DNA of 36,293 bases from an uncultured Synechococcales cyanobacterium (GTDB taxonomy: Bacteria; Cyanobacteriota; Cyanobacteriia; Thermosynechococcales; Thermosynechococcaceae): contig CADCWO010000183.1 in NCBI GenBank assembly GCA_902806435.1, positions 1 to 36,293 of the forward strand, given 5' to 3'. The notes under the pieces are model-generated. The model was given only the letters and a program-made list of their open reading frames with translations. It searched no databases and was not told where the DNA came from. Numbering within the stretch: the stretch's first letter is position 1; each line of letters begins with the position of its first letter. Position numbers and translations under genes: made by a program. Below, in pieces: positions 4,093-29,068 of this stretch.

Positions 4093-5301
4093 TCACAAAA
4101 GTTGCCAACAGGCTCGGGCAATTTCCCAATCTTCTTGGGTATGAATCACCATCACCCGGACGGCTGAGTCAGACGTAGAAATATCCTGATCAACAGGAGA
4201 CTGCTCATTTTTTTCTAGATCCACTTTTAGGCCTAGAAATTCAAAGGCTTTGCAAGCAGCAGCTCGAACTAGGGGGGAATTTTCGCCAACTCCAGCGGTG
4301 AAGATCAGAGCATCCAGCCCTCCTAAGCTGGCAAGCATAGCCCCAATAGAGGACCTCAGCCGATGTACGTAAATGTCAAGCGCTAGTTGCGCCCGCGGGT
4401 TGTTAGCGGCGATCGCCTCTACAATCTGCCGCATATCGGCTGAAATTCCGGAAATTCCTTTAAGACCAGAAGCCTTATTCAGTAACTGATCAAGCTCGTC
4501 TGCTGTGTAGGTTTCCTGACGCAGCAGATGAATCAAAATACCAGGGTCAACGGAGCCAGAGCGAGTACCCATCATTAAGCCATCCAGGGGGGTAAAGCCC
4601 ATAGTCGTGTCTATACTGTGCCCTTGAGAGATGGCGGCGAGGGAACAACCGTTGCCTAAGTGACAGGTGATCAAGCGCAGGCTATGTAGATCCCGTTCCA
4701 GAATTTGGGCCGCCCGGCGGGCACAATACTGGTGGCTAATGCCATGAAACCCATAGCGGCGGATACCCTGCTCGACCCACTCGTAAGGACCGGCATAGAT
4801 AGCAGCGGCATCAGGCAACTGAGCATGAAATGCTGTATCAAATACCGCCACCTGGGGTATTGATCCCAGGCTCATTTCAATGGCCTCTATCCCTTCTAAA
4901 TTGGCTGGATTGTGGCTGGGGGCAAAGGCAGCAAGACGAGCGATCGCTGCTTTGACCTCGGTTGTAACGACAACACTCTCTTTGTAGTCTGGGCCCCCGT
5001 GCACCACCCGGTGACCGACAACCTGAATATCTGAAGGTTGAGAAATGACTTGAGTTTCGCCCTGAGCGAGAGAGTTCAGCAGATAAGCGATCACATCAGG
5101 CCGGGACGTGGTGCGAATTTCTTCCTCTAAAACCGCTCCCCCGGCAGTCTTGATCTTAATTTGGGCAAAACCTTGATGATGAGTCCAGTCAACTGCCGCT
5201 TCCCAAACCGGCTGCGGAGGATGATCGGGAAGTGCTCCCGTTATCTCATAGAGGCAACTTTTTTGGCTGCTCGACCCGGCATTCAGCACCAAGATTTTCA
5301 T
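4093..5301 (-). CDS. ackA: Acetate kinase
   Basis: 402 residues, the normal family length. It interconverts acetyl-phosphate + ADP and acetate + ATP in the cytosol. Visible ASKHA-fold motifs in order: LNAGSSSQK at the N-terminus, VVHGGPDY, FDTAFHAQLP, RRYGFHGISHQY, the phosphate-binding HLGNGCSLAA, DGLMMGTRSG and, near the C-terminus, FTAGVGENSPLVR. The start ATG is preceded by AAAGGA and lies eight bases after the stop of the histidine phosphatase gene, so the two probably share an mRNA. Phosphoketolase, the enzyme producing acetyl-phosphate, is encoded upstream on the same strand, which fits the phosphoketolase-acetate route. No phosphotransacetylase gene is present here. Confidence 0.97.
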   Translation of the reverse strand: MKILVLNAGSSSQKSCLYEITGALPDHPPQPVWEAAVDWTHHQGFAQIKIKTAGGAVLEEEIRTTSRPDVIAYLLNSLAQGETQVISQPSDIQVVGHRVVHGGPDYKESVVVTTEVKAAIARLAAFAPSHNPANLEGIEAIEMSLGSIPQVAVFDTAFHAQLPDAAAIYAGPYEWVEQGIRRYGFHGISHQYCARRAAQILERDLHSLRLITCHLGNGCSLAAISQGHSIDTTMGFTPLDGLMMGTRSGSVDPGILIHLLRQETYTADELDQLLNKASGLKGISGISADMRQIVEAIAANNPRAQLALDIYVHRLRSSIGAMLASLGGLDALIFTAGVGENSPLVRAAACKAFEFLGLKVDLEKNEQSPVDQDISTSDSAVRVMVIHTQEDWEIARACWQLL

Positions 5302-8175: not shown

Positions 8176-10644
8176 CTAGGGACGCGTTCTTGCTTCTGCT
8201 TCCACGCCTTCTTGGGAGGGAGCAGGATCGCTAGCGCCGTGTTCCGAAACACTTTTACCGGCACCAGGGCTGCCATAGGGCCATTTCCAGTTGCGAACTT
8301 CCGGCAGGTCGTCTCCGTACTTGCGGACGTAGAGCTTGTGCTCAATCAGCTTGTCATGCAGCATCTGCTTCACATGCGCGGCGGTATACCTCAGCTGGGG
8401 CACCCGATCAATCACATCATCGGCCAAGCTGAAGCGATCTACTTCGTTCATCACCACCATGTCAAAAGGCGTCGAGGTTGTTCCTTCTTCCTTGTAACCG
8501 CGCACGTGCAGATTGTGGTGGTTGCGGCGGCGATAGGTCAAGCGATGGATCAGCCAGGGATAACCATGAAAGGCAAAGATAATCGGCTTATCGGGCGTAA
8601 AGATGCTATCGAAATCTTTATCACTCAGGCCATGAGGATGCTCCGTGTCTGGCTGGAGAGTCATTAGGTCTACCACGTTCACGACGCGAATCTTCAAATC
8701 AGGGAAGTGTTGCCGCAGCAAGTCAACAGCAGCCAAGGCCTCCATGGTGGGAATATCCCCGGCACAGGCCATCACCACGTCTGGCTCTACACCCTGGTCG
8801 TTACTGGCCCAATTCCAAATGCCAACACCTTTGGTGCAATGTTTGATCGCCGAGTCCATGTCAAGGTACTGCAAGGCAGGTTGTTTCCCCGCCACGATCA
8901 CGTTGACATAGTGGCGGCTACGTAGGCAGTGGTCGGTTACCGACAGCAGCGTGTTGGCATCTGGGGGCAGGTATACCCGAACGATCTCCCCTTTCTTATT
9001 GACCACGTGATCGATGAAGCCAGGGTCTTGGTGGGAAAACCCATTGTGGTCTTGCCGCCAAACGTGCGAGGTCAGCAGGTAGTTGAGCGAAGCAATTGGT
9101 TGACGCCAGGGAATGTGTCGAGTTGTCTTCAGCCACTTGGCATGTTGATTGAACATAGAGTCAACCAGGTGAATGAAGGCCTCATAGCAGGAGAAGAAGC
9201 CATGGCGCCCGGTGAGTAGATAGCCTTCTAGCCAGCCTTGGCAGGTGTGTTCACTGAGGATCTCCATTACCCGGCCCTGAGGCGATAGGTGGTCGTCGTA
9301 GGGGAAGGTTTCAGCCATCCAGGTGCGATCGGTTGCCTCAAACACATCACCTAAGCGATTTGAAGCCGTCTCATCGGGACCCACAATCCGGAAATTCTGG
9401 CTATTGCTTTTGATGATATCCCGCAAGAATTTACCCATAACGCGGGTGGCTTCTGCGGTCGTCACCCCGGGGTTAACCTCAACCGCATAATCTTGGAAGT
9501 CAGGCATTCTCAAATCCCGCAGCAGCAGCCCACCGTTCGCATGGGGGTTATCACCCATGCGCCGCTGCCCCTTGGGTGCTAGTTCTGCCAATTCATCAAT
9601 CAACTTGCCGTTTTCATCAAACAGCTCTTCTGGCTGGTAGCTCTTCATCCACGATTCCAGCAGCTTTACATGCTCTGGCTGTGTAGCCATCTCTGAGAAG
9701 GGTACCTGGTGCGATCGCCAGTAATCCTCAGTTTTCTTGCCATCGACTTCCTTGGGTCCTGTCCAGCCCTTAGGCGATCGCAGGATAATCATCGGCCATT
9801 GCGGGCGTCCAGCGTAACCGGTGCTGCGTGCATCACGCTGAATTGCTTTAATTTCAGCAATCACCGTATCCATCGTTGCAGCCATCAACTGGTGCATGGT
9901 TTCCGGGTCCGACCCTTCCACAAAGTAAGGTTTATAGCCGTAACCAATAAACAGGCTCTCCAGCTCCTGATGGCTGAGACGAGCCAGCACAGTCGGGTTA
10001 GCAATTTTGTAGCCATTCAAGTGCAGGATCGGCAAAACCGCGCCATCCTGAACGGGGTTGAGGAACTTGTTAGAATGCCAGGCTGTAGCTAGGGGGCCTG
10101 TTTCAGCTTCCCCATCCCCAACTACACAGCAGGCAATCAGATCAGGATTATCGAAGACAGCTCCGTAAGCATGGGAGACGGCATAACCGAGTTCACCCCC
10201 TTCATGAATCGAGCCAGGGGTCTCCGGGGCAACGTGGCTAGGAATCCCGCCAGGGAAGGAGAACTGCTTGAAGAGTTTCTTCATCCCCTCAGCATCTTGA
10301 GAGATATTGGGGTAATAGTCGCTGTAGGTTCCTTCTAGATAGGTGTTTGCAACCAGCCCGGGACCGCCATGACCTGGCCCCGCAATGTAAATCACATTCA
10401 GGTCGTCTCGCTTGATTACCCGGTTGAAGTGGACGTAGATAAAATTCAGGCCTGGGGTGGTACCCCAGTGCCCCAATAGCCTAGGTTTGACATGCTCTAG
10501 CTTCAGCGGTTCCTTTAGGAGCGGATTATCAAGTAAATAAATTTGGCCGACGGATAAATAGTTGGCCGCCCGCCAGTAGGCATTCGTTTTGGACAATTCT
10601 GCTTCGGTCAAAGGGCTAGTTTGTTCACTGCTTGCTACTGTCAT
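8176..10644 (-). CDS. xfp: Xylulose-5-phosphate/fructose-6-phosphate phosphoketolase
   Basis: 822 residues from ATG 10644, chosen because GAGGAGT stands eight bases upstream and the XFP fold starts soon after ([20 protein letters not shown]). A start at 10794 would add 50 residues unlike the family. This TPP enzyme cleaves Xu5P or F6P with phosphate to acetyl-phosphate plus GAP or E4P. Visible motifs: [11 protein letters not shown] near residue 60, GPGHGGPG (89-96), [14 protein letters not shown] (141-154), and TPP-binding [19 protein letters not shown] (177 on). The second half has the conserved [17 protein letters not shown] and [11 protein letters not shown]. The family usually ends near WKWPY; here about 33 Ser/Glu/Ala-rich residues follow. 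The acetyl-phosphate consumer ackA lies downstream on the same strand. Confidence 0.96.
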
Positions 10645-10651
10645 ACCGGGT

Positions 10652-10658
10652 ACTCCTC
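10652..10658 (-). promoter_or_regulatory. Shine-Dalgarno deciding the xfp start
   Basis: GAGGAGT on the minus strand, spaced seven bases from ATG 10644. This is the best ribosome-binding site in the upstream 150 bases and excludes the longer start at 10794. Confidence 0.65.
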
Positions 10659-10908
10659 GTAATCGTGAGTAGGTTATGGCCTGTGTGAAAATTGACCGAC
10701 AGCTAAACTGTCGCTGGTTAAGATACTTAAGCTTTGTCTGTACTGCGTTTACCTGCAACGGAGCTCTCGGCTCTAACGGCGATCGCTTGACCATCCTTTA
10801 ATACATGTGCCTCAAACATCTGCTATGCGATCGCACTGCGATTGTAGTTAACCCAACGGCTGCAGATGGGGCGTAAGCAGTTTAGCGATAATAACCTAGA
10901 ACCTTTCT

Positions 10909-19789: not shown

Positions 19790-22012
19790 CTAACTGAGAA
19801 TCTTGCCTTCATGGAGATACCGGCTCAGGGCGTCCTCCAGAGGCGGCAGCAGTACACCTCGCTCGCTACCGAGAACACTGTAGCTTGGGCGAGCAGCAGC
19901 AAGCCCCAACTCTTGAGTGGGACGAGCTTCTAGGCGACAGGCATCGACACCTGCGAGCTTAGCGCTCATTTGAGCTAGATCAGACCAGGCGATCGCGCTC
20001 GGGTTTGCCAGGTGCCATACACCGTACTCCCCGTCAATTAACAAGTCGAGGCTAGCATTTACTAGATCCGGGATATAGGTGGGCGAGACAATAGCATCCT
20101 CGGCAGCGACAAAAGTCTGCCCTGCCGCCAATTGACGCAGCGCAACCGTAACAAAATTGTGCTCATCCCAGGGCCCAAAAAAGGCACTGGCACGAACGAC
20201 CAGCGCAGACGGCAGGGCCTCCAAAACCCGGATCTCTGCCTTTGCCTTGCTGCGGCCATATACATTCAGGGGGGAAACCAGGTTACTCTCCACATACGGA
20301 ATAGAACCAGCCCCATCAAATACTAAGTCTGAGGAAAAAGTGAGCAGCGCTACGCCATGCTGGGCACACAGCATAGCTAAGGTCGCTGGACCATCGGTGT
20401 TTTCGCGCCAGCAGGCATCCTGTTCGTGTTCTGCCTCGTCTACGCGTACGTAGCCAGCAGCATTGACAACTGCCCAAGGATTTAGCTCTGTTAGAACCCG
20501 ATCAACAGATGCTGGGTCAGCAATGTCCATGTCTTGCCGGGTCACCAGGTGGTAGGGAATAGCACGGATATCACACAGCCGGGCAAAAGCACTGCCCAGG
20601 GTTCCCGTGGCTCCCGTGATTACCAGTGGGCGTACCCTGGCGTCCAATCCTGATGCTATCGCTGAGCTGATCTCCGTTTCAGCAAGGTTAACCCTGGCAT
20701 AGGAGCATCCAGGTGCTGGTGGATAAAACATCCGCTCCGGGCGACGCCACCATCCAGGCTGCTCCAAGACCGGGTGATCGTAGTCGCGCCCGGTGGCCAG
20801 AGCCTGTAAAATGTGAGCGATCGCTGTCGGGCGGGGTTTTGGAGAGCGTAGATCAAATACCCCTGGCTCATAAAAGCCATCAGCACGAGTCACCAGAATG
20901 TTCCAGTCATAGGCACCCAGTAGCGACCAAGCAGTCATGGCACGCACATCCACTCCAGTAGAACGTAGCTCCTGCGCTGTCTGCCAGATTTCCTTTAGCC
21001 ATCGCAGTTGCTCTTCTCGGGTACAGCCAAGGTGGGCTTCTGTTACAGCAAGCGGTAATCCATAGCGCTCCCAGGCTTCTTGCAGAAGAACACGGTGCCC
21101 GCTAGCCCCTGGATGATCCACCCGGACTGCTTCCACGTCTGCGTACTGGTGACGATCATTGCCGCCGTGGGACCAGGTAGGGTAACGATCCATCCGCTCG
21201 TCTAGGAAGCGATCGCTCGTCAGGTAGTGGTTAATCCCGATCACATCTGGAGGGCAAGGGTGGTCCAGGAATAGCTGGAGTTCAGCCTCTTTGATGCCAC
21301 ACTCCAATAGATAGCCCCCTGTAAGTTGATCAGGAGTGAGGCGACCGCATAGTAGATCCAAGCTCAACCAGCGGCGCTCGTTCTCCAAGGCCGCCTGGTA
21401 AGCCAAGAGCGGCGTACTGAAAATCTTAGCTAAGTCCTCGGTCTGGATTAGTTGGGCGGCGGGGTTGACCTCGCGAATTGCCTGCATCGAGAGCGCGATC
21501 GCGCGGCATTCGGTCAATAAGGCCCGAGCAAAGGTCAGCCCATCCCGACCGTGAGGGTACCAGTGGCCGTACAAACCACTAAAGCGGGCTGTTGTCAGTG
21601 GCTCATTGACGGGAGTGTAATGTTCCACCCAGGGATAGCGCTGGGCAAATGCCCCGGCAAACTCCGCTAACCCTTCTGCAAACGCCGGGTCAACCAGACT
21701 AGTGTGACGAGGACCGCTGCCATGGTGGACAAAGCCAACAATCGGGCGAATACCAAGTTCACGTAAGCGCTGCAGGCGCTCATCTGCCCAGGACCAGTCA
21801 GCATTCGCTACCCCATTGGGTGCGGTGCGCTCCCACAACACTGGGTAGCGGATAGCGCTAATCCCCAGTTCTGCAAACAAGTCAAGGTCACTAATGCGCG
21901 TGGCATGACCGTTGCGCTCAAGCTGATCAAAATACTGATCCCCAACGCGGTTCACGGTGGATTCTACCCCGGCCCACACCTCAAGGGGTCGTATTGTCGA
22001 CGATCCTGGCAT
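19790..22012 (-). CDS. Fusion: GH1-like glycosidase + RmlD-like sugar-nucleotide reductase
   Basis: 740 residues from ATG 22012. That ATG overlaps the previous stop as TAATG and has AGGAGG upstream (22019-22024); an in-frame start at 22054 is rejected. Residues about 8-410 form a GH1-like barrel: WAGVESTVNRVGDQYFDQL, RYPVLWERTAP, acid/base Glu137 in HYTPVNEPLT, GINHYLT, nucleophile candidate Glu325 in LAVTEAHLG, and a late AWSLLGAYDW. Residues about 460-740 are a Rossmann domain of the RmlD type: ITGATGTLGSA, VVNAAGYVRVDEAE, FSSDLVFDG, catalytic VYGRSKAKAE (Tyr585, Lys589). A role in polysaccharide synthesis or trimming is likely; whether the reductase half acts on dTDP-4-keto-rhamnose is unproven. 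The GH1 nucleophile motif is divergent from the usual TENG. Confidence 0.9.
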   Translation of the reverse strand: MPGSSTIRPLEVWAGVESTVNRVGDQYFDQLERNGHATRISDLDLFAELGISAIRYPVLWERTAPNGVANADWSWADERLQRLRELGIRPIVGFVHHGSGPRHTSLVDPAFAEGLAEFAGAFAQRYPWVEHYTPVNEPLTTARFSGLYGHWYPHGRDGLTFARALLTECRAIALSMQAIREVNPAAQLIQTEDLAKIFSTPLLAYQAALENERRWLSLDLLCGRLTPDQLTGGYLLECGIKEAELQLFLDHPCPPDVIGINHYLTSDRFLDERMDRYPTWSHGGNDRHQYADVEAVRVDHPGASGHRVLLQEAWERYGLPLAVTEAHLGCTREEQLRWLKEIWQTAQELRSTGVDVRAMTAWSLLGAYDWNILVTRADGFYEPGVFDLRSPKPRPTAIAHILQALATGRDYDHPVLEQPGWWRRPERMFYPPAPGCSYARVNLAETEISSAIASGLDARVRPLVITGATGTLGSAFARLCDIRAIPYHLVTRQDMDIADPASVDRVLTELNPWAVVNAAGYVRVDEAEHEQDACWRENTDGPATLAMLCAQHGVALLTFSSDLVFDGAGSIPYVESNLVSPLNVYGRSKAKAEIRVLEALPSALVVRASAFFGPWDEHNFVTVALRQLAAGQTFVAAEDAIVSPTYIPDLVNASLDLLIDGEYGVWHLANPSAIAWSDLAQMSAKLAGVDACRLEARPTQELGLAAARPSYSVLGSERGVLLPPLEDALSRYLHEGKILS

Positions 22013-24465
22013 TATTGTCCTCCTGCGACGGTTTCCAAGCGCTGTTTGCGACACAGCTGAGCGTATATTGTCAGTGCCTGTGCCACAACTTGGTCCATGT
22101 TGTAGTACTTGTAGGTCGCTAATCGCCCAACAAACTGAACACCCGGCGTGGCATCAGCTAAAGCCTTATATTGCTTGTAGATTTCGGCATTCTCGGGGCG
22201 CGGTACTGGGTAGTACGGATCACCTTCCGCCTGTGGATACTCATAAACGATGCTGGTTTTAGCATGCTCCTGACCCGTCAGGTACTTAAACTCCGTGATC
22301 CGGGTATAGAGGTGTTCGTTCGGGTAGTTAACGACAGGGGCTGACTGGTACACGGGTGCATTATGCGTCTGATGCTTGAATTCCAGGGAGCGGTAAGGTA
22401 GTTTACCGTAGCGGAACGCGAAGAATTCATCCACAGGACCGGTGTAGATCATCTCGCGGTACGGGATTATCTCCTGGATTTCGTGGTAGTCCGTGTTCAG
22501 CATGATCTTGATGTTCGGGTGGGACAACATCTTCTCGAACATCCGGGTATACCCATGCAGGGGCATTGCCTGATAAGTATCGGTGAAGTAGCGATCGTCG
22601 CGGTTGGTGCGGGTGGGAACGCGCGCCGTAACCATCTTGTCCAGTTCAGAAGGGTCAACGCCCCACTGCTTGAGGGTGTAGCCCCGGAAAAACTTTTCGT
22701 AGAGTTCCCGACCCACTTTGCTCACAACCACATCCTCTGAGGTGCGAATATAGGGCTTCTGCTCTGCGACTGAAGCAAAGAACTCCTCCAGCTCAAATGA
22801 GGTAAGGCTGAGGCCGTAGAGCTGGTTAATCGTGTTCAGATTGATCGGGATCGGAACCAGCTGCCCATCCACACTGGCTAAGACGCGGTGCTCGTAGGGC
22901 CGCCACTGAGTGAAGCGCGAGAGGTACTCGAAGACCTCGCGGGAGTTGGTGTGAAAGATGTGCGGGCCATACTTATGCACCAGCAGGCCAGAATCGTCGT
23001 AGTGGTCGTAGGCATTTCCAGCAATGTGCGATCGCTTGTCCACAATCAGGATCTTTTTACCATCACTGGCTAGCCGCTCCGCTAAAACGCTCCCGGCAAA
23101 CCCCGCGCCAACAATCAGGTAGTCAAACATCGCATCTTTGTCCTTAGTAGGGGTAACTGCACCTGCCTTGAGCCTGCTGGAATGGTGGGTATCCAACGTA
23201 GACTTCACAAGCTGCATCATCCGTGACCAAGTGTGATCCCACGACGTCTTTTCGAGGAAAGCATCAACGCGGCTAAGCCAATCTGACTGATCAGTGGCAT
23301 CCTGCATGGCAGCTTCCGCTGCTGAAACAAACTCAGCCACGGTGTCCGCGATCCTTACCATACCCTCCTGGCCATAGGGACGAACTACATCCAAAATCGA
23401 TGTAGACACAACAGGCTTGCCGGCGGCGAGGTATTCTGGGGTTTTAGTCGGGCTAATGAAGCGCGTTGACTCGTTGCGGGCAAACGGCAGCAGAGCAACA
23501 TCCCAGCCAGCTAGGTATGCTGGTAGCTCCTGATAGTCTTTACTGCCCAAGTAATGGATGTTCTGGCGGCGTGGTAAAACTGTTGGGTCTATTTTGGCAA
23601 CCGGACCCATGATCACTAACTGCCAGTCGGGTCGTGCCGCCGCAATGCCGTCCAGCAGGTCCAGATCCATCCGTTCGTCGATTACCCCATAGAAGCCAAG
23701 CCGCGGGTGGGGAATATTCGCCTGGTCCACTGGGTCTGCTGCTTGATTTCTAGCCTGGGCAAAGTGTGCCACATCTACACCGCTGGGAAAGGCATAGATA
23801 TTTAGGTGCTGGTCCTGCTTAGCTTCGTAAAGGCTCTGCCCGCCTGTAAATACTAGGTCTGCACGGCTAAACAGTTCAGCTTCATAGCTTCTCAAGATGG
23901 GCGGCGCCTGCTTAAATGCTGACAGCTCATCCATACAGTCATACACGATCGCCTGTGGTTTCAAATGGCGTGTAAAGCCCATCGCCATAGGTGTGTAGTA
24001 CCAGAGGATATAGTTGCCGATGTTTTGCTCTAGGAACAAACCATCAACTAGTTCTTGTTGAGCTGTGGTCACTTCCTCTTTGCTCAAACCCTGGCTGAGG
24101 TGCGGTACGACAACCCACACTCCATCTTTACTCAGACTGACATCTAGCCATGCTGATCGATCAGCACTCAGAACTGGTTCTTCAATAAAGAATACTCGTT
24201 GCTGTTGAGCACAGCGACTTAAGAGATGTTGAGGCCTCTGATAGACAAAGTTCCAACGTAAATGGGACAGGCAAACCAGATCAGGCACGTTTGGCGAGGC
24301 AATTCCAGCAGCTTCAAGATCCTGACTGGATAGGTCAGAAAGCTGTGTAGCTTTGCTGGAATCTAGGACCATACCCCTACTCGAGCCAACTTCAACGGGA
24401 CCCGGAGACGATTGAACCTGATGGAGCTGAGATGTTTTATCATCACTCTTTCCGGTATTACTCAT
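22012..24465 (-). CDS. Fusion: glycosyltransferase + UDP-galactopyranose mutase
   Basis: 817 residues. Residues 1-60 are a polar, probably disordered leader. Residues about 61-430 are a GT-B glycosyltransferase (LVCLSHLRWNFVYQRPQHLL, HPRLGFYGVIDERMD, LPFARNESTRFISPTKTPEYLAAGKPV). Residues 446-817 are a complete UDP-galactopyranose mutase: FAD-binding YLIVGAGFAGS, KRSHIAGNAYDHYD, KYGPHIFHTN, KQWGVDPSELDKM, MPLHGYTRMFEKM, TGPVDEFF and PYRSLEFK. UGM converts UDP-Galp to UDP-Galf, using reduced FAD. Met446 (23130) begins a standard-length UGM, and AAGGA lies upstream, so internal initiation is conceivable. First gene of the operon: a single chain could make UDP-Galf and transfer it. Confidence 0.93.
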   Translation of the reverse strand: MSNTGKSDDKTSQLHQVQSSPGPVEVGSSRGMVLDSSKATQLSDLSSQDLEAAGIASPNVPDLVCLSHLRWNFVYQRPQHLLSRCAQQQRVFFIEEPVLSADRSAWLDVSLSKDGVWVVVPHLSQGLSKEEVTTAQQELVDGLFLEQNIGNYILWYYTPMAMGFTRHLKPQAIVYDCMDELSAFKQAPPILRSYEAELFSRADLVFTGGQSLYEAKQDQHLNIYAFPSGVDVAHFAQARNQAADPVDQANIPHPRLGFYGVIDERMDLDLLDGIAAARPDWQLVIMGPVAKIDPTVLPRRQNIHYLGSKDYQELPAYLAGWDVALLPFARNESTRFISPTKTPEYLAAGKPVVSTSILDVVRPYGQEGMVRIADTVAEFVSAAEAAMQDATDQSDWLSRVDAFLEKTSWDHTWSRMMQLVKSTLDTHHSSRLKAGAVTPTKDKDAMFDYLIVGAGFAGSVLAERLASDGKKILIVDKRSHIAGNAYDHYDDSGLLVHKYGPHIFHTNSREVFEYLSRFTQWRPYEHRVLASVDGQLVPIPINLNTINQLYGLSLTSFELEEFFASVAEQKPYIRTSEDVVVSKVGRELYEKFFRGYTLKQWGVDPSELDKMVTARVPTRTNRDDRYFTDTYQAMPLHGYTRMFEKMLSHPNIKIMLNTDYHEIQEIIPYREMIYTGPVDEFFAFRYGKLPYRSLEFKHQTHNAPVYQSAPVVNYPNEHLYTRITEFKYLTGQEHAKTSIVYEYPQAEGDPYYPVPRPENAEIYKQYKALADATPGVQFVGRLATYKYYNMDQVVAQALTIYAQLCRKQRLETVAGGQ
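22019..22024 (-). promoter_or_regulatory. Shine-Dalgarno inside the UGM gene end, coupling the next ORF
   Basis: AGGAGG, six bases before the ATG of the GH1-RmlD gene and overlapping the last codons of the UGM fusion. With the TAATG stop/start overlap (22014-22010) it points to translational coupling. Confidence 0.75.
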
Positions 24466-25238: not shown

Positions 25239-27446
25239 ATGACCGCAGTTAGCTCAAGCAAGACTTCAGCGCCGGCTTTTTGTGAGGGAATTCAGTATTT
25301 TGGTGAAGCACTGCCCGGATTTGAGAAATATCAAAATCCCGCGATCGCCGAAGCAAGTTCCGCCATTGCTGACCCTACTGATCAAGCGGCAGTCTTCCAA
25401 ACGCTCTTAGCAGCGGATGCCCTGCGTTACCTGATCCTACAGACAACGGCTAGTAAATCCTCCGGTCATCCCGGTGGTTATGCCAGTTGTGCCGAAGGCT
25501 ACGCCAGCTTGTTCATGCTTGGTTACAAGAATGTGATGACGGAAGTCGGGCACCACGCCCCGGGGTTCTACAGCGCCATGTTCTTGGACCGCTCTCTGGA
25601 GGAGATGGGGATTGAGACTGTAAAACAACTGGGCGAGCGCTTCCGGGAGCGCCACGGACTGCTAGGCCACCTATCTGGCCAAATCCCTGGCCTGCTTTCT
25701 CCCGCTGGTCCCTTGGGTCAAGGGCAACACTTTGCCATGGCTGCTGCCTTGCTGCACCAGGAGACATTGTTCCCGTTCACGGTGGGAGATGGCGGCTTAG
25801 GTGAACCCTACATTGTCAGTGCCATGGCCCACTTCCACACAGCCTTCCCCAGTGTCACTAATTTCTTGCCCATCCTAGTTTGGAACGGTTACAGCCAGGA
25901 ACACCACAGCATGGTTTCCACCCAATCTAATCAGCGGATGATCAGCTACTGGCGGGGCAACGGGTTTGAAGAAGTGATCCTAGTCAATGCCAAAGACTTT
26001 GATGACCAAAATCAGTCCGGCGACTATGTAGATAGCACCCTATTTTCCTTCGAGCAACGATTGGCCTTTACCGCCGCTGTCCTTAAGGCAACGGATCAGG
26101 CAGCTAAATCTGCTCTAGGCGGCAAGCTGACAGTGCTGATCGTCAAGCAACTTAAAGGTGCCGGAGTGCATGCCCACGGCTCCAAATCTCATAACCTGTA
26201 TGCCCACCACACCTTAGAGCATGAAGACGTTGTGGGTGGTCTGCAAGAGCGGGCCTTGGCCCCGGCAGCCTGGGAACTAGTCCGCACAAATTTTGAACGG
26301 TCTGGGGGTGGCCCGGCTGCTCGTACCGCAGTCACAGAATCCGTGCTTCCCCTGCCGGAACTTGGAGAACTCCCCCTAGATGAGTTCCCGGTAGGGGGTA
26401 ATAAACAGATTGCAACGACAGCCATGGGGCGGCTGGTGGCGAAAGTGGGAGAGCAAGATCGCAACTTTCTGGTCACAAATGCGGATGGTAATGAAGCTTC
26501 TGGAATTAGCAATATCAATCAAGCCCTGCAAATTATTCACCCCACTAGCGATCCTCTCTATTACCAAGGTCCTGGCGGGCAAGTCTATGAACCGTTGAGT
26601 GAAGATGCCTGCGCGGGGTTAGCTGCGGGGTTGGCGTTAATGGGCAGTCGCAGTTTGTGGTGTTCCTATGAATCCTTTGCGGTGAATGGCTTACCGATCT
26701 GGCAGACAGTGACGCAGGCGATGGCAGAACTGCGCCGTCCCACTCCCTCGACGATTACCCTCTTTACTGCCGGAGCGCTAGAGCAAGGTCGAAATGGCTG
26801 GACTCATCAACGCCCAGAAATTGAAGCCTACTTCGCGGCGATGATGCGCAATGGCAACATCTTCCCCCTGTTTCCCCCGGATGCTAACTGCATTCAAGTA
26901 GCCTACGAGTGGGCCTTGACGACTAAAAACAAGGGAATTACGATCACAGCCAGCAAATCTCCACTGCCGATTCACACCACCTTTGAGCAAGGTCGCCAAG
27001 CCCTACATGATGGTGCTGTCGTGCTCCAGGAAACGTCGGGCAGCAAGCTAATTGTCTTTGCCGTGATCGGAGATATGCCCCTGATCCCGGTATTTGCGGC
27101 CGCTGACGCGCTAGCGGAGCAAGGTTTGGGGGTACGGATCGTCTCGGTGGTCAATCCCCGCCGCCTCTACCGTGCCCACGATGTTGCTTGGGAAGCCTGC
27201 TCTGAAGCCGACGGAGGCTTTTTGGACGATGCTGGGTTCTCTACGTTGTTTGATGGGGATGCCTTGATTGGCGTATCCGGTGGGGCTAGCGGCTTGCTGG
27301 AACCAATCATGCTGCGGAGTAATGCCAAGCGAGATACCTTTGCCTGGAAGCGAGGTGAAACCACTGCTAGCCCTACGGAACTGATGAATTTCAATGGACT
27401 AACGGCTGAAGCTTTAACTCAACGAGCTGTGGAACTGTTGGATTAA
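25239..27446 (+). CDS. Transketolase/phosphoketolase-like TPP enzyme (diverged XFP paralogue)
   Basis: 735 residues. It looks like a transketolase-superfamily TPP enzyme: ASKSSGHPGGYASCAEG near residues 71-87, LSPAGPLGQGQHFAMAAALL, GDG of the TPP/metal site in FTVGDGGLGEPYIVSAMAHFH, ILVWNGYSQEHH, and in the second domain the activating Glu in LWCSYESFAVNGLPIWQ. FPLFPPDANCIQVAYEWAL parallels the XFP segment [11 protein letters not shown] in the phosphoketolase at 8176-10644. It lacks that enzyme's [11 protein letters not shown] and HEGGELGY motifs and is about 90 residues shorter. From memory, several cyanobacteria carry such a second, poorly characterised paralogue (Sll0529-like). The reaction is unproven: phosphoketolase, transketolase or something else. 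An acid-sugar kinase gene follows 299 bp downstream on the same strand. Confidence 0.82.
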   Translation: MTAVSSSKTSAPAFCEGIQYFGEALPGFEKYQNPAIAEASSAIADPTDQAAVFQTLLAADALRYLILQTTASKSSGHPGGYASCAEGYASLFMLGYKNVMTEVGHHAPGFYSAMFLDRSLEEMGIETVKQLGERFRERHGLLGHLSGQIPGLLSPAGPLGQGQHFAMAAALLHQETLFPFTVGDGGLGEPYIVSAMAHFHTAFPSVTNFLPILVWNGYSQEHHSMVSTQSNQRMISYWRGNGFEEVILVNAKDFDDQNQSGDYVDSTLFSFEQRLAFTAAVLKATDQAAKSALGGKLTVLIVKQLKGAGVHAHGSKSHNLYAHHTLEHEDVVGGLQERALAPAAWELVRTNFERSGGGPAARTAVTESVLPLPELGELPLDEFPVGGNKQIATTAMGRLVAKVGEQDRNFLVTNADGNEASGISNINQALQIIHPTSDPLYYQGPGGQVYEPLSEDACAGLAAGLALMGSRSLWCSYESFAVNGLPIWQTVTQAMAELRRPTPSTITLFTAGALEQGRNGWTHQRPEIEAYFAAMMRNGNIFPLFPPDANCIQVAYEWALTTKNKGITITASKSPLPIHTTFEQGRQALHDGAVVLQETSGSKLIVFAVIGDMPLIPVFAAADALAEQGLGVRIVSVVNPRRLYRAHDVAWEACSEADGGFLDDAGFSTLFDGDALIGVSGGASGLLEPIMLRSNAKRDTFAWKRGETTASPTELMNFNGLTAEALTQRAVELLD

Positions 27447-27745
27447 TCTGGATTGAATCTGGTTACCTTTACTCCTAATCTTTAGGTAGGACTAGAGTTC
27501 TATACCTATTACTATCTGGCCGTTAGAGAGACCTATGCCCCCATAACATCGGTTTGGTCTACCTGGGCGGCAGACTTGGAGATATTTCAGGACGTTACAA
27601 GCCCTGGTGGCGGACATTCCAGGCCTGAAGTAACTGCTTCATTGCCTTAGGCAATCCGGCAGCAGGACTAAACTATCTCAACACGCGGCTCTCAAACCCA
27701 ACTACAGCGATCGCTACGCTAGCTCCTAGTCTCCTCAGGCTTAAC
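27447..27745. other. Intergenic before the DUF1537 gene
   Basis: 299 bases with one HIP1 site near 27708. No ORF or hairpin-plus-T-run terminator was seen, so readthrough from the upstream TPP-enzyme gene is possible. Confidence 0.4.
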
Positions 27746-29068
27746 ATGACAACCAAACCCAAAATTATTGTTCTTGATGATGACCCAACCGGTTCCCAGA
27801 CGGTTCATGGTTGTCTACTGCTGATGCGTTGGGATGTCGAAACTTTAAAGCAAGGCCTATCAGACGACTCACCGATTTTCTTTGTATTGACGAACACGCG
27901 ATCGCTGCCGCCAGAGAAAGCCGCAGCCGTCACCCGCGAAGTTTGCCAAAACCTGAAACAGGCGATCGCCACGGAGGGAATTGCAGATTTCTTGATTGTC
28001 AGCCGCTCCGACTCCACCTTGCGGGGGCACTACCCGATTGAAACGGACGCGATCGCCGAAGAACTCGGTCCTTTTGATGCTCATTTTTTGGTTCCTGCTT
28101 TCTTAGAAGGAGGCCGCATCACTCGTGACAGCGTGCATTACCTGATCGTGGACGGTGTGGAAACCCCCGTTCATCAAACAGAGTTTGCCCGTGACTCTGT
28201 ATTTGGTTACCAGCACAGTTACCTACCGGACTACGTGGCCGAAAAAACAAAAGGCCGGATTCCGGCTGAGCAGGTAGAGCGATTTTTGCTAACAGACATT
28301 CGCTCAGGTAGCTTGGAGCGTTTATTGCACCTGAGTAATAACCAGTGTGCCGTTGTGGATGCGAAGACGCAGGCAGATCTAAACCGCTTTGCCACTGATG
28401 TTTTAGCCGCTGCTTCTCAAGGAAAACGCTTCTTATTCCGGAGCGCCGCCAGCATCTTAACCGCCCTAGCAGAGCTCCCTCCGCAACCTGTTGCCCCAGA
28501 GGCAATGCAGCAATACGTCCGGGGAGGAAAGCCCGGCATCATTCTTGTAGGTTCGCACGTCAAAAAAACAACTGAGCAGTTGGAATGTCTCCTGCAAGAA
28601 GTGGATACGGTTGGCGTTGAAGTAGAAGTGACACGTCTCAAAGATCAGCCAAAGGAACACAAGGCTTTGTTAGAGCACGTGCTGCAAGCTGTTCAGGCGG
28701 CCCACACTGCTGGTAAAACTCCCGTCGTCTATACCAGTCGTCAGGAACTGAGCTTTGCAAATACCCCGGCGCGCTTAGATTTTGGGGCAGCAGTCTCAGC
28801 GCTATTAATGGATGTGGTTCGCAACCTACCTGCTGATATTGGCTTTTTGATCAGTAAAGGTGGCATTACCTCCAACGATGTTCTTAGTACAGGTCTAGAT
28901 TTGCCAACAGCGCGTCTACTCGGCCAGATTCTACCTGGCTGCTCGGTTGTTCGTACTCCTGCTGACCATCCCCGTTTCCCCAATCTGCCAGTGGTACTAT
29001 TTCCTGGCAATGTTGGAGATATTGATGGCTTGGCCACCACCTATCATCGTCTTGGCCAGCCAGTTTGA
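27746..29068 (+). CDS. Four-carbon acid-sugar kinase family protein (DUF1537)
   Basis: 440 residues, normal for the family. N-terminal motif IIVLDDDPTGSQTVHGC (residues 8-24) holds the acid-sugar binding Asp residues. SRSDSTLRGHYPIETDA lies near residue 90-106. The C-terminal nucleotide-binding domain has GIILVGSHVKKTTEQL, LISKGGITSNDVLSTGL and VVLFPGNVGDIDGL. Characterised relatives (DtnK, OtnK) phosphorylate D-threonate, D-erythronate or 2-oxo-tetronates with ATP. The partner dehydrogenases and aldolases of those pathways are not next to it here. Instead its upstream neighbour is the phosphoketolase-like enzyme, which could act on the products or on related sugar acids; that link is inference. 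Confidence 0.9.
   Translation: MTTKPKIIVLDDDPTGSQTVHGCLLLMRWDVETLKQGLSDDSPIFFVLTNTRSLPPEKAAAVTREVCQNLKQAIATEGIADFLIVSRSDSTLRGHYPIETDAIAEELGPFDAHFLVPAFLEGGRITRDSVHYLIVDGVETPVHQTEFARDSVFGYQHSYLPDYVAEKTKGRIPAEQVERFLLTDIRSGSLERLLHLSNNQCAVVDAKTQADLNRFATDVLAAASQGKRFLFRSAASILTALAELPPQPVAPEAMQQYVRGGKPGIILVGSHVKKTTEQLECLLQEVDTVGVEVEVTRLKDQPKEHKALLEHVLQAVQAAHTAGKTPVVYTSRQELSFANTPARLDFGAAVSALLMDVVRNLPADIGFLISKGGITSNDVLSTGLDLPTARLLGQILPGCSVVRTPADHPRFPNLPVVLFPGNVGDIDGLATTYHRLGQPV

Follow-up and report, generated by a model that had tools for sequence, protein, structure and literature searches.

Four papers term Sll0529 of Synechocystis PCC 6803 a putative second phosphoketolase (PMC7744508, PMC4609045, PMC9034593, PMC11257934), and flux models of cyanobacterial carbon metabolism count sll0529 as such (PMC7744508). 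PMC7281370 describes the same protein as a putative transketolase of unknown function and names its gene in a figure legend on the control of low-CO2 genes by NdhR. The corresponding Alr1850 of Anabaena PCC 7120 has been printed both as a transketolase (PMC4915528) and as a phosphoketolase region (PMC8147232). Here we describe a very probable member of this family, a 735-residue protein that we call XL, encoded at positions 25239-27446 of the plus strand of a 36,293-nucleotide stretch of DNA (contig CADCWO010000183.1, referred to as the window) from an uncultured Synechococcales cyanobacterium. The adjoining gene on the same strand, separated by a gap of 299 bp, encodes a 440-residue DUF1537-family kinase (27746-29068). 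An earlier sequence-only reading of the window had proposed a second, diverged phosphoketolase-like thiamine pyrophosphate (TPP) enzyme beside a DUF1537 kinase, and this is borne out by the Pfam matches and the open reading frames (ORFs). The same reading had thought of a possibly undescribed sugar-acid route; the gene itself is not new, its very probable ortholog sll0529 being already in print under the two labels given above.

The link to Sll0529 and Alr1850 is one of gene order. In two loci of one genus (L114 and L116, genus g9) an M50 (site-2) protease with a CBS domain, identified by a Pfam run on the L114 copy, lies directly upstream of XL on the same strand, and in Synechocystis PCC 6803 the neighbour of sll0529 is sll0528, a site-2 protease gene (PMC12014562, PMC4632739). 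Because the order in L114 and L116 matches that of sll0528 and sll0529, XL very probably belongs to the Sll0529/Alr1850 family. The order was not seen in two other loci of the same genus (L113 and L115); that this genus is Synechocystis is a guess. XL thus resembles these proteins in its position beside the protease gene in Synechocystis-like genomes, yet they carry the labels of phosphoketolase isozyme or putative transketolase whereas XL forms a clade of its own. Boxes of the NdhR type occurred in the window at the level expected by chance (28 versus 29.5) and were not enriched upstream of XL when up to two mismatches were allowed (11 of 147 loci versus 13 of 147 shuffled ones).

Pfam matched XL to XFP (52.3 bits, cut-off 22), XFP_N (40.7 bits, cut-off 23.7) and Transket_pyr (32.5 bits, cut-off 27), and did not find XFP_C in it. 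The protein missed all NCBIfam phosphoketolase cut-offs, with a best score of 110 versus 962 bits, and reached 31.5 bits with the transketolase model TIGR00232, whose cut-off is 682.25. As the sequence-only reading had noticed, XL lacks the phosphoketolase motifs [11 protein letters not shown] and HEGGELGY and has SSGHPGGY at residues 74-81 (25458-25481); a transketolase-like PAGPLGQG replaces HEGGELGY. In an alignment of 10 XL proteins with 11 phosphoketolases (5 cyanobacterial and 6 from plasmids of other phyla) and 4 transketolases, XL was 19-24% identical to the phosphoketolases and 18-23% to the transketolases, the phosphoketolases being 47-80% identical among themselves. A phylogeny of XFP-like proteins had been suggested as a check, and the tree resolved three separate clades, XL (support 100/98), XFP (96/95) and transketolase (100/100), with XL on its own branch outside the phosphoketolases; the branches are long and the tree carries no information on the root. 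By sequence and by tree, XL is a third clade, separate from both phosphoketolase and transketolase. When profiles were compared, its closer kin was phosphoketolase (probability 99.3, E 2.1e-20, over 600 columns) rather than transketolase (probability 94.2, E 1.1e-7, over 196 columns). Foldseek likewise placed phosphoketolases first and transketolases second for a predicted XL model of mediocre quality (mean predicted local distance difference test score, pLDDT, 65.5; below 50 at residues 407-460 and 469-528), which is usable for the overall transketolase/XFP fold only.

The active site of XL keeps the end at which phosphoketolase chemistry takes place and differs at the end that holds the sugar. 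Residues are numbered here as in the phosphoketolases of Bifidobacterium adolescentis and B. breve, with roles as given in PMC12012885, where H64, H320, Q321, Y501 and N549 form the phosphate subsite and E437, S440, R442, S541, H548 and K605 are mostly assigned to the sugar end. Conservation was counted in 150 aligned XL proteins. The catalytic histidines and glutamate (H64, H97, H142, H553 and E479) were present in all 150 XL proteins, as were H320, Y501, Q546, N549, K605 and the TPP GDG...N motif; in XL numbering the invariant residues are H77, H105, H144, D184, N216, H318, E455, Y477, Q516, N519, H523 and K573. H77 lies within SSGHPGGY and aligns with phosphoketolase H64 and with the transketolase histidine, the TPP/Mg motif runs from GDG with D184 (25788) to N216 (25884; feature 25788-25886), and E455 (26601-26603) aligns with the catalytic E479. 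Four of the five residues of the phosphate subsite are identical, the fifth, Q321, being Asn in every XL protein (H318-N319, 26190-26195, aligned with H320-Q321).

At the sugar end, all 150 XL proteins showed the changes E437 to G, S440 to A, S541 to A and H548 to R, besides Q321 to N and D547 to G; the R442 column held G in 145 and A in 5. The side chains of E437, S440 and R442 are thus lost in the segment G417-G422 (26487-26504), which aligns with E437-R442 although the alignment may be off there by a few residues. Further on, the loop A511..Q516-G517-R518-N519..H523 (26769-26807) corresponds to phosphoketolase S541, Q546, D547, H548, N549 and H553. In contrast, Q321, E437, S440, S541, D547 and H548 were kept in the 11 phosphoketolases, as was the basic residue at column 442 (R in 7 and K in 4). 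The substituted residues N319, G417, A420, A511, G517 and R518 are themselves invariant in the 150 XL proteins, so the sugar end is as strictly constrained as the chemistry end, which argues against a decaying copy. Phosphoketolases (XFP_N/XFP/XFP_C; e.g. PDB 3ahc, 8io8) share with XL the fold family, the TPP site, the dehydration histidines, most of the phosphate subsite and a QxxNG(F/W/Y)(S/T)HQ loop, and differ from it in the sugar end, in the ATP-inhibition motif, in the XFP_C match and in a longer C terminus. That motif, described for the Synechococcus elongatus phosphoketolase (PMC10365998), was found in 0 of 150 XL proteins versus 12 of 12 cyanobacterial phosphoketolases, and XL would probably be free of the ATP brake of the canonical cyanobacterial enzyme.

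From these residues we infer that XL carries out phosphoketolase-type chemistry on a ketose other than xylulose 5-phosphate (Xu5P) or fructose 6-phosphate (F6P), as an enzyme of its own clade unconnected with the neighbouring kinase; we give this reading a probability of about 0.5. XL would bind TPP and Mg, the TPP ylide would attack C2 of the ketose and the C2-C3 bond would be cleaved, after which dehydration and phosphorolysis would release acetyl phosphate as in phosphoketolase. This end product is the most likely one in view of the retained dehydration histidines and of an inorganic-phosphate site that is largely intact. The ketose would not be recognised through R442, given that this Arg is lost, that an Arg stands at position 548 and that four side chains, polar or acidic in phosphoketolase, have disappeared; with sugar recognition so altered, the main substrate is probably neither Xu5P nor F6P. 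On a more tentative footing, XL could be an enzyme type of its own, the third in the transketolase/phosphoketolase group, which forms acetyl phosphate from a ketose that is neither Xu5P nor F6P, lacks the ATP brake and carries a misassigned PKET2 label. The different substrate proposed by the sequence-only reading therefore stays plausible, in that XL is a separate TPP enzyme whose substrate site has changed; the route with the DUF1537 kinase in which that reading had placed it found no support.

Several points weigh against this proposal. Given an identity of 21%, columns 437-442 could be misaligned by a few residues, and the N-terminal part of XL is transketolase-like (GHPGG, GPLGQG). K605 is kept and R518 could still bind a sugar phosphate, so that XL may use Xu5P or F6P after all. 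The predicted structure is too poor to show the active site in space. In addition, PMC7744508 ascribes to sll0529 a residual phosphoketolase flux of about 10% in a pket1 mutant. This flux is also an argument for the view that XL is simply a second, ordinary isozyme of Xu5P/F6P phosphoketolase, in line with the name PKET2 that several papers give to its probable ortholog, and the retention of the catalytic and most phosphate-site residues agrees with it, as does the presence of the canonical phosphoketolase in 107 of the 119 genomes with XL. We nevertheless consider an ordinary isozyme unlikely, since XL is far less similar to phosphoketolases than these are to one another, misses all of their model cut-offs and differs invariantly in the sugar-end residues; PMC7744508 itself calls for experimental proof of the activity. 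A printed xfp1/xfp2 double mutant without growth defect says little about function.

XL might instead be a transketolase-type C2 transferase that makes no acetyl phosphate. It shares with transketolase (TIGR00232) the N-terminal GHPGG and GPLGQG motifs, the TPP residues, the overall fold and the Transket_pyr match, and both Alr1850 and Sll0529 are sometimes annotated as transketolase. However, XL residues H318, Y477, Q516 and N519 agree with phosphoketolase and have no equivalents in the four aligned transketolases, the K605 column holds Lys in XL and Arg in transketolase, and a canonical transketolase gene is already encoded in this genome, all of which makes a transferase improbable. If the substrate of XL does differ from Xu5P and F6P, as we favour, both the flux models and the xfp1/xfp2 double mutants need to be read again.

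XL is found across most cyanobacteria and is not strain-specific. Matches at E<=1e-20 occurred in 119 of 386 sampled Cyanobacteriota genomes, so the ORF is not a chance one; all were within the class of the window, which accounts for about 186 of the 386 genomes (judged from the order of the list of genomes without a match), and full-length copies were 68-78% identical. The canonical phosphoketolase was found in 132 of the 386 genomes (E<=1e-60), 130 of them in the same class. Both genes were present in 107 genomes; 12 had XL only and 25 phosphoketolase only. XL is missing mainly from one family with small genomes (f19), in which the kinase is kept. No relatives of XL were found on viral contigs. 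A tblastn search of plasmids returned 158 records, all below 60% identity; among the 30 matches listed identity was 22-30%, and the annotated ones were phosphoketolases. In a scan of genome contigs the best 80 XL loci all had cyanobacterial titles, and distant non-cyanobacterial members may exist. XL is a protein highly conserved in most photosynthetic cyanobacteria with no assigned reaction, a clear gap that can be assayed. A total of 150 XL loci were fetched, 85 of them flanked by 5 kb or more on each side and at least 10 fetched twice with two flank sizes. The commonest neighbour in these loci was a divergently read cytochrome P450 gene upstream (57 of 150, e.g. L141:8487-9827), with no obvious metabolic link, and a conserved operon partner was not found in the 150 loci.

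The sugar-acid route of the sequence-only reading can be understood as one in which XL and the DUF1537 kinase work one after the other on a sugar acid; that reading had named the lack of a conserved neighbourhood with the kinase as refuting. The genes adjoin in the window, and the kinase lay in the XL flank in 6 of the 150 loci (the window, L034, L040, L067, L133 and L134), more than random placement would give. Yet a conserved neighbourhood is lacking: among the 118 genomes with both genes, these were within 10 kb in only 3 (the window, G197 and G213), farther apart on one contig in 56 and on different contigs in 59, which rules out a conserved pairing. Moreover, the kinase also occurs in genomes without XL, including picocyanobacteria-like ones (185 genomes with kinase versus 119 with XL). 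Three of the six loci (L034, L040 and L133) have a shared gene between XL and the kinase and MinC after them; a few lineages may thus have retained an ancient block of genes in which XL lies upstream, and its shared ancestry explains the excess of proximity. A sugar-acid route through both enzymes is accordingly very improbable, and the kinase is almost certainly a chance neighbour of XL that belongs to another pathway.

The kinase, the sole SBD_N protein found in this genome, shows both DUF1537 domains (SBD_N 211.7 bits, NBD_C 140.7 bits). At E<=1e-20 it was present in 185 of the 386 genomes, being near-universal in photosynthetic cyanobacteria. Both domains are common to the D-threonate kinase NF047819, whose model the window kinase misses (76.9 bits, cut-off 450), and no catabolic cluster was seen around it. 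Protein searches with the window kinase found none in genomes outside the class; a family search found SBD_N in 20 of 28 such genomes tested, the aligned proteins being 20-25% identical to it.

A lead for the role of this kinase comes from vitamin B6 synthesis, in which, according to PMC9997740, all cyanobacteria have DXS, PdxA and PdxJ and are without PdxB, PdxR and Epd. We found PdxA above the cut-off in the genome of the window, and the PdxB model was below the cut-off there and in all 30 other genomes tested. The pdxJ gene was present in 370 of the 386 genomes; among the 28 genomes outside the class, 20 of the 24 that have pdxJ also carry SBD_N and none of the 4 lacking pdxJ does (Fisher p 0.0034, not corrected for kinship). 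In non-photosynthetic Cyanobacteriota (loci L226-L243) a PdxA gene followed the kinase, overlapping or touching it, in 14 of 18, and all five such PdxA proteins tested passed the cut-off of the pdxA model TIGR00557 but not that for D-threonate 4-phosphate dehydrogenase. According to PMC7954711, 4-hydroxythreonine can be phosphorylated by DUF1537 proteins. It is conceivable, though doubtful as yet, that the cyanobacterial kinase supplies 4-phosphohydroxythreonine or 4-phosphoerythronate and so fills the PdxB/Epd hole. Against this stand the absence of such a PdxA neighbour from all 20 loci of the class, the mere 20-25% identity between kinases inside and outside it, five genomes with pdxJ and no kinase (G131, G021, G343, G077 and G367), a genome of the class with kinase and no pdxJ match (G278), and the known occurrence of DUF1537 kinases with PdxA2 in sugar-acid catabolism (cited in PMC9997740). 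A report joining DUF1537 to cyanobacterial B6 was not found in the open-licence papers searched. Through this lead, a recognised gap in vitamin B6 synthesis could be tested directly. In 6 of 20 loci of the class (L154, L155, L156, L163, L164 and L165) the kinase gene lies directly upstream of minC and minD, an adjacency that is possibly a link or an old gene block.

Elsewhere in the window, the canonical phosphoketolase used for comparison is encoded on the minus strand at 8176-10644, where the sequence-only reading had placed it, and bears the ATP-inhibition motif [10 protein letters not shown]. Its longest ORF is open to 10794 (8176-10794); since homologues begin at about residue 50 of that frame, the start at 10644 is the better one. 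It is followed on the minus strand by genes for phosphoglucomutase, a His-phosphatase and the acetate kinase AckA (4093-5301; PF00871). Scans of the window gave promoters at chance level (4 versus 3.9 expected), 9 terminators versus 5.3 expected with none between the XL and kinase genes, and no Rfam match. Two fused genes were also observed: at 22012-24465 a glycosyltransferase part is joined to a UDP-galactopyranose mutase (GLF), and at 19790-22054 an N-terminal glycosyl hydrolase family 1 (GH1) part is joined to an RmlD-like reductase. The GH1-RmlD fusion and a GalE-like epimerase gene follow the glycosyltransferase-GLF fusion on the same strand.

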